Shown here in pieces: positions 27,516 to 50,221 of a DNA stretch of 64,000 bases. How positions within the stretch are numbered: the stretch's first letter is position 1; each line of letters starts with the position of its first letter. Under the pieces are notes generated by a model that saw only the letters and a program-made list of their open reading frames with translations, searched no databases and was not told the DNA's origin. Made by a program: the position numbers and the translations under genes. This DNA comes from Crambe crambe (Eukaryota; Porifera; Demospongiae; Poecilosclerida; Crambeidae). The stretch is taken from assembly GCA_963924555.1 (NCBI GenBank), contig OZ004586.1, positions 62,001-126,000 on the forward strand, read 5' to 3'.

Positions 27516-30500
27516 ATGGCAACTCCTACCCTTGCTGTAGAAAAGTGTCCCACTGAGGAATATTCCCTGCGGAATCGTTCAGTGGTCCATGAAAAGACAG
27601 CTCCTTATGCCAAAGTGACAATTGCTGGAAGGCTGGAAGAGTGCTACTTGACTCTGGACAGTGATGTCAAGACTGCTCCTGGCAAGCTTGGTCTCAGTGC
27701 CTACCAAGTATGTCATATTCCCTTAAGACGACACATTGTATGGTGCTGTGTCTTGTGTGCAGAGAGAGTGGTTGAATCTTCGTTTGAGGGACCTTGTCCA
27801 GGTGACCCCATGCACTATCCCACGCCAACAACATCTCGTTGGCACCATCTCTATAGAGATTAGCTACCACCAGCAACCAAAGTCAGTCATGTGACTTAAC
27901 CTTTAATATCGTGTGACTTGATTAATCATTGCATGCAGGAAGCCTCAGCCTGCCATTAACTCTGACGACATGTCAGATTACTTCCTCCACCAGTTTAAAG
28001 ACAATGTCTTCTGCCAAGGCCAGCCAGTAAGTCACCAAAGGAAAGCTGATAAAGAGAACTTTCAGTGAAAAACCCATTTTCTCTTTTAGTTTGTCATTGG
28101 TTTTCTTGGGACAAAAAGCTACATAAGAGCTGAAGTCCTTCAGATAACAGGTGTGTCTACCTTATATGAAGTGTATGTGGATTTGATCTTTTTCTTCTTA
28201 ATATTTTTTCTAGCCGAGCAGTTGGGTCACAAAGGAAGTTCAAAGAAGATTCGTTTTGGAATAATTCATGCTAACACCAGAGTCATCTTTGAGAAGAAAC
28301 CTGTTAGTAGTTGTTGCTGTCTCTCTTTGCCATCCTAACCCTCCCCCAACCTCATTAACCCCCACCTTCCTCCCCCAACCTCATTATCATGTGCAGGAGT
28401 CATCAGTACAACTGATCGGTCGCCATGTCGGTGACTCTGCCCACCAAGCCCTGATCAGTCCGGACTGGGACTTTAACCAGATGGGCATTGGTGGACTTGA
28501 TAAAGAGTTCTCCGACATCTTCAGAAGAGCATTTGCCTCTCGTGTGATTCCGCCTGATGTGGTGGAAGAGCTAGGCATGAAGCACGTCCGTGGGATTCTC
28601 CTCTTTGGGCCTCCAGGTCAGTCCCCCCCTCTCCACATGCATGTATGATGGTGACTGTATGCAGGTACTGGAAAGACTTTGATGGCACGACAGATAGGCA
28701 AAATGCTGCATGCAAGGGAGCCCAAGATTATCAATGGACCAGGTGGACTTAATTTATTTATGCAACCATGATCTAACCTTCCTTCCTTGCATGATTAGAG
28801 ATCCTGAACAAATATGTTGGAGAGTCTGAGGCTAATATCAGGTGAGCCTGAACTGAGCTCACACTGCCTGCCCCCTTGATAAGTAAGCTGTTTTATTCCA
28901 TTAGACTGCTGTTTGCTCAGGCAGAGGAGGAGCAGAAGAAGATGGGTTTTTCCAGTGCCTTGCACATCATCATATTTGATGAGATAGATGCTATCTGTCG
29001 CACTCGTGGTTCTCTCTCTGGAAGTACTGGTGTCCATGACACTGTTGTCAACCAACTCCTTGCTAAGGTACCACAATCAACCAACTTTTTAAATTCTAAC
29101 AATACCCCTCTCCCTTTTGTGCAGATTGATGGTGTGGAACAGCTGAACAATATCTTGTTGATTGGCATGACCAACAGGAAGGATATGATCGATGAAGCTT
29201 TGCTCCGCCCAGGAAGGTTGGAAGTCCAGATGGAAATAGGTAAACATCTGGTATGATCATGTGACTATCACATGACTAGCTGTGTATAGGCCTCCCTGAT
29301 GAGGAAGGACGTTTGCAGATCCTTGACATTCATACTGCACAGTTGAAAAAGAATAGCAAATTGGCTGAAGATGTAGACTTGAAGGATCTGGCCAAGAGAA
29401 CACGTAACTTCAGTGGTGCAGAGATAGAGGGTCTGGTTCGCAGTGCTCAGTCCACTGCTATCTACAAAGAACTCAAGGTGAAATTAAGTCAGTGAAAGTG
29501 GTAGATGACATTTCTTACCTCCTTTTCAGGCCAAAGGGGAGGGGCTAGGAGTGTCCATAACTCATGAAGAGGCCAGGAAGTTGAAGGTAGCCATGAAGGA
29601 CTTTGATCATGCTTTGCTCTACGATCTGAAGCCCGCCTTTGGCATATCTGATGAGCAGCTTGACCGCTATGTCTACAATGGTAAGTAACCAAGATGAATA
29701 CTGTTAGTTGTATTGTGGTTGTTCTAACAGGTGTCATCCCTTGGGGCTGCAAAGTTCAAGACATCATTGATAAAGGTAGAAAAGCAGTACAAGTGGTGAC
29801 CTCCAGCCAGCGTAATCCATTGGCCAGTATGCTGTTACGTGGCTTGCCTGGCTGTGGCAAGACGGCTCTGGCTGCCTACATAGCCAAGTCATCCGAGTTC
29901 CCTTTTGTCAAAGTCATCTCTCCTGAGAATATGGTGGGGTTCACTGAATCTGCTAAATGTGCAGCCATCAAAAAAGTCTTTGATGATGCATACAAGTCTG
30001 AACTCAGTTGTATCGTAGTCGACAACATTGAACGACTCCTCGGTAAGTCACATGATCATCACATGATTATCATTAAGAGTATTTTGATATTTCAGATTAT
30101 GTATCAATTGGACCAAGATTTTCTAATCTAGTCTTGCAAGCTCTTCTGGTGTTACTATCACAATTGCCTCCAAATCGTGTAAGTTCATTCTTCCTAGCAT
30201 GAGTATATTCCATCAGAATATTGTTCAACAGTCTGGGAAGACTATTCACAGACTAGTGATAATAGGTACAACTGGTCTTGAAGATGATGTGCTCAACATG
30301 ACATCGCTAAAGAGTGCCTTCACTGAATGTGTGAATGTGCCTTACCTGACCAGCGGGGATGAAATACTTGCTGTCCTTCAGGAGTCCAACATGTACCAAT
30401 TCACTGACAATGAGTGTAGTGCCCTCCAAGCAAGACTGAAGGGGAAGAGGTGAGTGTCTCTTTGGACTCGTAATGTTGTGGAGCATTTTATTACTTCGCA

Positions 30501-30688
30501 GTTGTTGTGTGGGCGTAAAGAAATTGATATCCATCATCGAGTATTCCCTGCAGGTGAGCTCGTGTGTCTTCTGTGTGCATGTGGTGTGAAGCTGGTTAGT
30601 TAATCCTACACTTTCTGTTTTGTAGAGTGAAAATCGTGTGGAAGCTCTTGTTGATGACTTGGTGGCACAAGCCAGGCTCACCAAGTAA
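27516..30688 (+). CDS. NSF: N-ethylmaleimide-sensitive factor, vesicle-fusion AAA+ ATPase
   Basis: The full protein can be spliced from [20 protein letters not shown] to LVAQARLTK, about 730 residues, as in human NSF. Order: N-domain (SNAP binding), D1 with Walker A GPPGTGKT, Walker [10 protein letters not shown] and the SRH ([19 protein letters not shown]), then D2 with Walker A GLPGCGKT (human GPPHSGKT) and [23 protein letters not shown] uses ATP at D1 to pull apart cis-SNARE complexes after fusion, with D2 holding the hexamer together. D2 has VVDNIERLL where human has VVDDIERLL. It sits two genes from GOSR2, one of the SNAREs it would recycle, and near Wnt, as in human 17q21. Confidence 0.96.
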
Positions 30689-50100: not shown

Positions 50101-50221
50101 TTATCGCCCAGGGGGTACTTTTCACTGGAACCCTCTAATCAACTCTTCGTTAGAAGGCAGTGGCAGTACTAGCATGGCAGGAGCACTATCCTTTGTTGCA
50201 AAGTACCTGATGATGATGTAG
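44123..50221 (+). CDS. CNPPD1: CNPPD1 (cyclin Pas1/PHO80 domain-containing protein)
   Basis: Eight exons. The cyclin-box region aligns well with human CNPPD1: SRKVLKRGYIADLVREGGIS, LLLGLIYIRRLAETNPDYLT, VSSRDLFLIAMVVASKYMND, VLDNLEYNFLKAIDWRLYVP, GWLTYTELAAFWESSDLQAS, ending in a hydrophobic segment (LMCVSTLLAAAQSLSLPLF) as in human. The family resembles PHO80-type cyclins; its kinase partner is not established. The C-terminal part encoded by the last exon (from 49051) is species-specific and contains a 17-residue tandem repeat. Introns 1 and 5 exceed 1.3 kb. The start at 44123 gives MLMSQVDPERSEC; an ATG two codons later is equally possible. An open, splice-bounded stretch at 45768-45869 is not part of the conserved frame. 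Confidence 0.9.
44225..45533 (+). other. First CNPPD1 intron with CATG-rich minisatellite
   Basis: The 1.3-kb intron has no supported exon. Around 45040-45175 it contains four imperfect units with ACATGCACATGTGATCATGTAC and GTGGAGGTT, an alternating purine-pyrimidine, CATG-rich minisatellite related in composition to those at 48672 and 52076. A short GA repeat lies at 45459-45481. Confidence 0.6.
45040..45175. repeat. CATG-rich palindromic minisatellite (copy 1)
   Basis: Repeated ACATGTACATGTGGAGGTT and ACATGCACATGTGATCATG words. Each unit contains self-complementary hexamers (ACATGT, TGATCA), so single strands could fold extensively. Confidence 0.75.
46662..48390 (+). other. Long CNPPD1 intron with CT microsatellite
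   Basis: About 1.7 kb without a supported exon. It contains a short AT run (46713-46724), a perfect 34-unit CT repeat (47253-47320) and otherwise unremarkable AT-rich sequence. Short frames here look non-coding. Confidence 0.5.
47253..47320. repeat. (CT)34 microsatellite
   Basis: Sixty-eight uninterrupted bases of alternating C and T in a CNPPD1 intron. The lack of interruptions points to a young, probably polymorphic repeat. Confidence 0.97.
48672..48721. repeat. CATG-rich palindromic minisatellite (copy 2)
   Basis: Two copies of CACATGCACATGTGCATG separated by a short spacer (AAACCTACATGCAA) in a CNPPD1 intron, similar in words to the arrays at 45040 and 52076. Confidence 0.6.
49590..49885 (+). 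repeat. Coding minisatellite, 51-bp unit, in the CNPPD1 tail
   Basis: About five to six units of 51 bases encode PETWHNGPPSLEARHN-type repeats of 17 residues. Adjacent units near 49750-49850 are almost identical. Because 51 is a multiple of three, copy number can vary without breaking the frame. Confidence 0.88.

Follow-up and report, generated by a model that had tools for sequence, protein, structure and literature searches.

A single Wnt gene of the sponge Crambe crambe in a gene neighbourhood probably shared with the mammalian WNT1/3/6/9/10 loci

Introduction

Placing the Wnt genes found in sponges, ctenophores and placozoans in the known subfamilies is reported to be hard or impossible, nine of the ten Wnts of the sponge Halisarca are without orthologues (PMC4902976), and both glass sponge genomes are discussed as being without Wnt genes (PMC10282587). 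Can the position of a sponge Wnt gene indicate the subfamily to which it belongs? The question is raised by a 64,000-nucleotide stretch of the demosponge Crambe crambe (assembly GCA_963924555.1, contig OZ004586.1, positions 62,001 to 126,000 of the forward strand; the window), which carries a single Wnt gene together with NSF, SPATS2-family, GOSR2 and CNPPD1-like genes. A sequence-only reading had proposed that one ancestral Wnt locus carried these neighbours before sponges and other animals split. We find that the neighbours have relatives beside mammalian Wnt genes and suggest that the block is probably a remnant of the genes that lay around one Wnt gene in early animals.

A five-gene block with a single Wnt gene

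Open reading frames (ORFs) were taken as stop-to-stop frames on both strands, and gene models were built from them and then checked against Pfam and PDB sequences; the ab initio gene finder merged adjacent genes, and the main genes were remodelled from recognised peptides. Between positions 27516 and 50221 the order is NSF (plus strand), a SPATS2-family gene (minus), GOSR2 (plus), the single Wnt (plus) and a CNPPD1-like gene (plus). The Pfam and PDB matches, together with the gene models, bear out the five genes in the order that the sequence-only reading had given.

The Wnt gene matches Pfam PF00110 with 189.4 bits (cut-off 20.3, E=1.4e-55). Its model comprises 349 residues with 27 cysteines and begins with MLVCSLLPYTLA, which was judged by eye for a signal peptide, and the first exon may be incomplete. 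The segment CRCHGISGTC is the sole occurrence of C[RK]CHG across the six frames of the window and contains CHGxSG, the motif with the acylated serine of Wnt proteins. Membership of the Wnt family, as judged from the protein sequence, is beyond doubt. Motif scans of the window reveal no second Wnt and no ARF, hedgehog-type, tubulin or homeodomain gene, and a loose PRKAG-type pattern has two matches. Collections of prokaryote (genome_contigs) and viral (viral_contigs) sequences were queried with single proteins, an approach limited to close relatives: Wnt exon 3 gave six pattern matches in the former and two in the latter, and NSF gave eight in the latter, none of them confirmed.

The top PDB match of NSF is a vesicle-fusing ATPase (E=1.7e-207), with 246 of 416 aligned residues (59%) identical over D1/D2, and both AAA and NSF_ATPase_lid of Pfam are matched, such that we regard its identity as beyond doubt. 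This degree of identity, like the 31% between the Wnt protein and Wnt7a, fits a sponge; the presence of a Wnt gene speaks against a glass sponge. Its 18 exon pieces are separated by 17 gaps of 48–108 bases, that is, by very small introns, where pieces 8 and 9 have no fixed junction and three further junctions score negative for splicing. The SPATS2-family gene matches SPATS2-like (PF07139) with 87.5 bits (cut-off 25, E=1.8e-24).

The protein that we name GOSR2 matches V-SNARE_C (58.2 bits, cut-off 27.1, E=1e-15). It carries the helix LGLSNTVMRLIEKR and a tail anchor that runs in frame to the stop, both of which match features of GOSR2. The last intron of this gene (39125-39605, 481 bases) appears to be of the GC-AG type with the donor GCAAGC, and the frame is open across it to the stop. 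The identity of the CNPPD1-like gene appears the least secure among the five: its match to the Pfam family Cyclin (PF08613) is weak, lying above the cut-off (25.3 bits against 21, E=2.3e-5), no PDB match is found up to E 10, and the first exons were not found. The name follows a presumed similarity to CNPPD1 that comprises VSSRDLFLIAMVVASKY, GWLTYTEL and a subsequent hydrophobic segment. Towards the C terminus (49601-49860), a 51-base unit encoding 17 residues around PETWHNGPPSLEARHN is repeated five times.

Neighbours shared with mammalian WNT loci

On human 17q21, NSF, WNT3, WNT9B and GOSR2 are direct neighbours in this strict order. In the literature on 17q21.31, the chimpanzee inversion reaches ~650 kb beyond the human one, over WNT3, WNT9B, GOSR2 and RPRML (printed RPML), and NSF is treated as part of the same inversion locus (PMC12485747). 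The 17q21 run claimed by the sequence-only reading is supported insofar as WNT3, WNT9B and GOSR2 are listed together beside the locus that holds NSF. The other claimed link, of CNPPD1 with WNT6 and WNT10A, is supported by a pig table of quantitative trait loci, apparently in map order, that gives WNT6, WNT10A, CDK5R2, FEV, CRYBA2, miR-375, CFAP65, IHH, NHEJ1, SLC23A3 and CNPPD1, so that seven coding genes and one microRNA separate WNT10A from CNPPD1 (PMC12071171). In addition, a list for human 12q13.12-q13.13 runs from WNT10B and WNT1 over 12 genes to SPATS2 (PMC2359992), and a cattle list of ~1 Mb, which is not map-ordered, includes WNT1, WNT10B and SPATS2 (PMC7137482). This link of SPATS2 to WNT1/WNT10B is new relative to the sequence-only reading, which had three families and two copies.

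Given the orthology of GOSR2 and CNPPD1, all four neighbour families (4/4) are shared with the mammalian WNT1/10B, WNT3/9B and WNT6/10A loci, and therefore the vertebrate copies of the neighbourhood are represented by three out of four. On human chromosomes 2, 12, 17 and 1, the regions that contain WNT genes are interpreted as a single region multiplied by two genome doublings (PMC12198301). Because the mammalian Wnt pairs all go back to a single ancestral cluster, the four families point to the Wnt1/3/6/9/10 locus. A coiled-coil gene at 26–27 kb was considered as CCDC65, which lies near human WNT10B in the 12q13 list (PMC2359992), and was dropped, there being no Pfam match.

The chance expectation was modelled with four Wnt clusters, a genome of 19,500 genes, neighbour copy numbers of 1, 1, 1 and 2 and a reach of 13 genes; the gene total, the copy numbers and the sizes of the linkage groups are assumptions. 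With this reach, which was picked post hoc, the joint probability that 4/4 families lie within 13 genes of a Wnt1/3/6/9/10 gene is 1.6e-9 genome-wide; if the genes already share a linkage group, it is 1.4e-5 for a group of 2,000 human genes and 2.2e-4 for one of 1,000. Widening the reach to 30 genes raises these two values to 3.9e-4 and 5.8e-3, the last being the loosest setting. We take this as good evidence that the local linkage exceeds chance and as fair evidence that it exceeds chromosome-scale linkage.

Long introns around the Wnt gene

The median intron length in the NSF model is 57 bases (n=17, including the junction that is not fixed). Of 12 introns in GOSR2, Wnt and CNPPD1, 4 measure at least 900 bases, versus none of 50 in a comparison set of ten genes (Fisher p=9e-4, rank p=0.007); this set does not include the coiled-coil gene, the WAC-like gene, the CAP-Gly gene or the two membrane genes. 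When 23 ab initio introns are added, doubtful ones too, long introns elsewhere amount to 2 of 73 (Fisher p=0.003, rank p=0.011). An enlargement of bystander introns around the Wnt gene, one criterion of a genomic regulatory block, is therefore seen at the post hoc cut-off, and the pattern fits, without proving, the presence of Wnt enhancers within the neighbours.

To look for hidden genes or transposons, ten ORFs were compared with Pfam: four from the first long GOSR2 intron, one from the second, four from the Wnt-CNPPD1 interval and one from the CNPPD1 intron. None scores above the cut-off, with one sub-threshold match at E 0.097. Within the Wnt-CNPPD1 interval, positions 45036-45176 hold repeats rich in CATGTG and ACATGT.

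Genes flanking the block

To the left of the block lie, in order, an ANKIB1-like gene, NOP58, a transglutaminase, a TCTE1/DRC5-like leucine-rich repeat gene, two membrane or mucin-like genes, PDE1 and the coiled-coil gene; to the right lie PLEKHA8, an exostosin of family GT47, a WAC-like WW gene, GORASP2 and a CAP-Gly gene. The names ANKIB1, TCTE1/DRC5 and WAC are our readings of domain matches and not tool labels. The human copies of NOP58, PDE1, PLEKHA8 and GORASP2 are located on 2q31-33, 7p14 or 12q13, such that 4/7 flank genes with a clear human family fall on segments of the WNT paralogon (P ~0.005-0.02 at assumed base rates of 0.08-0.12). These positions suggest that the window as a whole stems from one ancient linkage group. 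This pattern agrees with findings in the sponge Ephydatia, whose synteny with other animals is conserved, in places down to the local gene order (PMC7385117). We make no Hox claim for the window, since Hox clusters are placed on chordate linkage group B (PMC7269912) and the association of Hox with the WNT region is proposed to date only from the ancestors of vertebrates (PMC12198301).

Several frames of the flanks have an unusual composition. On the minus strand, positions 12498-16898 hold membrane frames in which YxGxYERxPxY and Gly-Ile-Tyr-Gly-Asn units recur and which may have tails for tyrosine signalling, and positions 17492-20080 hold a long frame of Thr/Met/Glu-rich repeats with an outer region of Ig-like appearance and a membrane segment nearby; the tested part of each is without a Pfam match. 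The GT47 exostosin-type gene (53389-55324, minus strand) looks closer to the plant-type branch than to animal EXT. The window contains no transfer RNA and no Rfam match at gathering score.

Table 1. Window positions of the block genes, of their long introns and of four flanking genes
Feature	Position	Strand	Basis or remark
NOP58	5242-7340		best PDB match Nucleolar protein 58
PDE1	21840-24776		best PDB match PDE1B
NSF (vesicle-fusing ATPase)	27516..30688	+	PDB, Pfam, 18-piece model
SPATS2/SPATS2L-family gene	31060..33664	-	Pfam PF07139; coding pieces, N terminus provisional
GOSR2-type Qb-SNARE	34479..39683	+	V-SNARE_C; tail-anchored; GOSR2 label from motif; first exon(s) provisional
GOSR2 long intron 1	34992..36907	+	1916 bases (1895-1907 with alternative junctions); candidate Wnt regulatory DNA
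GOSR2 long intron 2	37067..39037	+	1971 bases; candidate Wnt regulatory DNA
Wnt	40690..43175	+	PF00110; 3 modelled exons 40690-40999, 41505-41761, 42693-43175; start provisional
Wnt long intron	41762..42692	+	931 bases (991 in first model)
Wnt-CNPPD1 interval	43176..46240	.	3065 bases; includes any CNPPD1 5' exons
CNPPD1-like gene	46241..50221	+	PF08613; Pho80-type cyclin domain and hydrophobic segment, without 5' exons; name from presumed similarity
CNPPD1 long intron	46662..48561	+	1900 bases; weak acceptor (junction score 0.1)
PLEKHA8	50381-52785		best PDB match PLEKHA8
GORASP2	60267-62074		PDB 224 bits versus 209 for GORASP1

Discussion

We consider it highly probable that the neighbourhoods of the sponge window and of mammals share their ancestry and, with little less assurance, that the block is a surviving piece of the surroundings of one early-animal Wnt gene. 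Early in animal evolution, one Wnt gene would have had these neighbours, and on the line to cnidarians and bilaterians the locus would have expanded to the Wnt1/3/6/9/10 cluster. The two genome doublings of vertebrates would then have quadrupled the locus and left single-copy neighbours on different copies, with NSF and GOSR2 by WNT3/WNT9B (17q21), CNPPD1 by WNT6/WNT10A (2q35) and SPATS2 by WNT1/WNT10B (12q13). Because the window keeps these neighbours together, its Wnt would be the positional counterpart of the entire cluster. The single ancestral locus of the sequence-only reading is thereby strengthened by 4/4 families on three vertebrate copies. Its proposal that position could root Wnt subfamilies gains no firm support: position argues for the 1/3/6/9/10 cluster, but the sequence of the protein gives this group no preference, with Wnt7a and Wnt5a scoring above Wnt3 and Wnt3a.

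Several observations weigh against an ancestral neighbourhood of this kind or against its regulatory interpretation. The reference set for the Wnt protein consisted of PDB sequences only (Wnt3/3a, 5a, 7a, 8/8a and WntD), ten of which matched, and among these, from which Wnt1, 6, 9 and 10 are absent, the ranking is Wnt7a (122 bits; 88 of 285 residues identical, 31%), Wnt5a (114), Wnt3 and Wnt3a (105 each) and then Wnt8; by protein sequence the subfamily appears unassignable. The neighbourhood comparison sets the window against mammalian gene lists only. Both the 13-gene reach and the 900-base intron cut-off were chosen after the fact, for 33 of the 50 comparison introns the length is that of a gap separating peptide cores and not of a mapped intron, and two introns of at least 900 bases lie outside the three genes (1138 bases in a membrane gene and 1840 bases at the SPATS2 5' end, both ab initio and without homology support). 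The flank count covers seven of 13 genes, the transglutaminase, exostosin, CAP-Gly, coiled-coil and two membrane genes being omitted, and ANKIB1, the TCTE1/DRC5-like and the WAC-like gene are presumably outside the paralogon segments. In addition, ARF3, which adjoins WNT10B in the human list (PMC2359992), has no counterpart in the window by P-loop motif scan. The orthology of GOSR2 is a further weak point: its protein has no PDB match up to E 0.1, and because of this the choice of GOSR2 over GOSR1 or VTI1 depends on the helix and tail-anchor motifs. If the SNARE were another Qb-SNARE, or the cyclin gene not CNPPD1, the correspondence would be partly spurious, and indeed both proteins match only the broad families V-SNARE_C and Cyclin, with no PDB match for either; the presence of the presumed GOSR2-type helix and tail anchor, and of a Pho80-type cyclin domain with a hydrophobic segment after it, an arrangement expected of CNPPD1, makes such a misassignment very improbable. 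We also think it unlikely that only chromosome-scale linkage is ancestral and that the close adjacency arose by independent shuffling within the chromosome in two lineages. Linkage does raise the expected proximity, as reflected in the loosest joint probability, and in mammals CNPPD1 and SPATS2 are not adjacent to Wnt, sitting 7 and 12 genes away; however, the remaining linked settings give 1.4e-5 to 1.2e-3, and NSF and GOSR2 lie directly beside human WNT3/WNT9B, a placement that is in part documented (PMC12485747).

Granted that the neighbourhood is ancestral, what has kept it together? Breaks between GOSR2 or CNPPD1 and Wnt would be selected against because Wnt control elements would lie in their long introns, as in a genomic regulatory block. 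We tentatively put such elements forward as the likeliest reason for the retention of the block, falling short of calling them probable. Next to it stands the possibility, which we hold a shade more doubtful, that nothing holds the neighbourhood and that slow-rearranging genomes have simply left it unbroken. Such inertia would accord with the retained synteny and local order of Ephydatia (PMC7385117). The genes in the flanks also seem to derive from the same linkage group, as judged by their human positions; yet the genes nearest to Wnt stay linked, whereas the next ones out, PDE1 and PLEKHA8, are presumably not near a mammalian Wnt, and the long introns cluster around the Wnt gene. A shared role of NSF and GOSR2 in the SNARE cycle, in which NSF disassembles SNARE complexes and GOSR2 is a Golgi SNARE, could in principle preserve the pair through joint expression with Wnt as a bystander. 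This we regard as quite improbable, since SPATS2 and CNPPD1, which are not known as trafficking genes, are linked to Wnt too, and SPATS2 stands between NSF and GOSR2 in the window, as two Wnt genes do in human. Returning to the regulatory explanation, the combined proposal, in which this single Wnt of a non-bilaterian animal occupies the original place of the Wnt1/3/6/9/10 cluster and is assigned by position where its sequence fails, with control elements in the same neighbours since the first animals, is one to which we give not quite even chances.

The block is a further case of ancient microsynteny as it is already known. Irimia 2012 reportedly described conserved ancestral microsyntenic pairs of animals, and a GOSR2-Wnt-like pair may stand in that list; among the literature matches listed, as far as their titles and the starts of their abstracts go, the block is not described. 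In the sponge Amphimedon, 60 microsyntenic units are confirmed, 43 of them with adult enhancer-like marks; these ancestral pairs are likewise neighbours kept from sponge to vertebrate, some beside a developmental gene, whereas here five genes form a block around a Wnt, which may overlap the 60 units (PMC5429095). Bystanders are similarly tied to Wnt genes in the Wnt5-7 block (fbxl14-wnt5 and atxn10-wnt7), where wnt7-atxn10 is read as a genomic regulatory block; that block has another Wnt pair and other neighbours, none of which was recognised on reading the ORFs of the window, with no dedicated search (PMC8851819). The Wnt9-Wnt1-Wnt6-Wnt10 cluster, which Daphnia and Lottia possess and which similar clusters of Nematostella resemble, is also an ancient Wnt locus, of bilaterians and cnidarians (PMC3003278), whereas the window has one Wnt and is connected through neighbours and not through Wnt paralogues. 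Finally, the human WNT-HOX paralogon on chromosomes 2, 12, 17 and 1/7 holds Wnt pairs near all four neighbour families (PMC12198301), but is quadrupled and dispersed, while the motif scan of the window finds no homeodomain.

A neighbourhood in common with the vertebrate Wnt1/3/6/9/10 loci would provide a criterion for Wnt assignment that is independent of sequence. The assignment of orphan Wnts, and with it the Wnt set of the first animals, becomes testable by position on existing chromosome assemblies. If it is true that the introns of GOSR2 and CNPPD1 hold Wnt enhancers, the block would represent a very old tie between a signalling gene and its bystanders.

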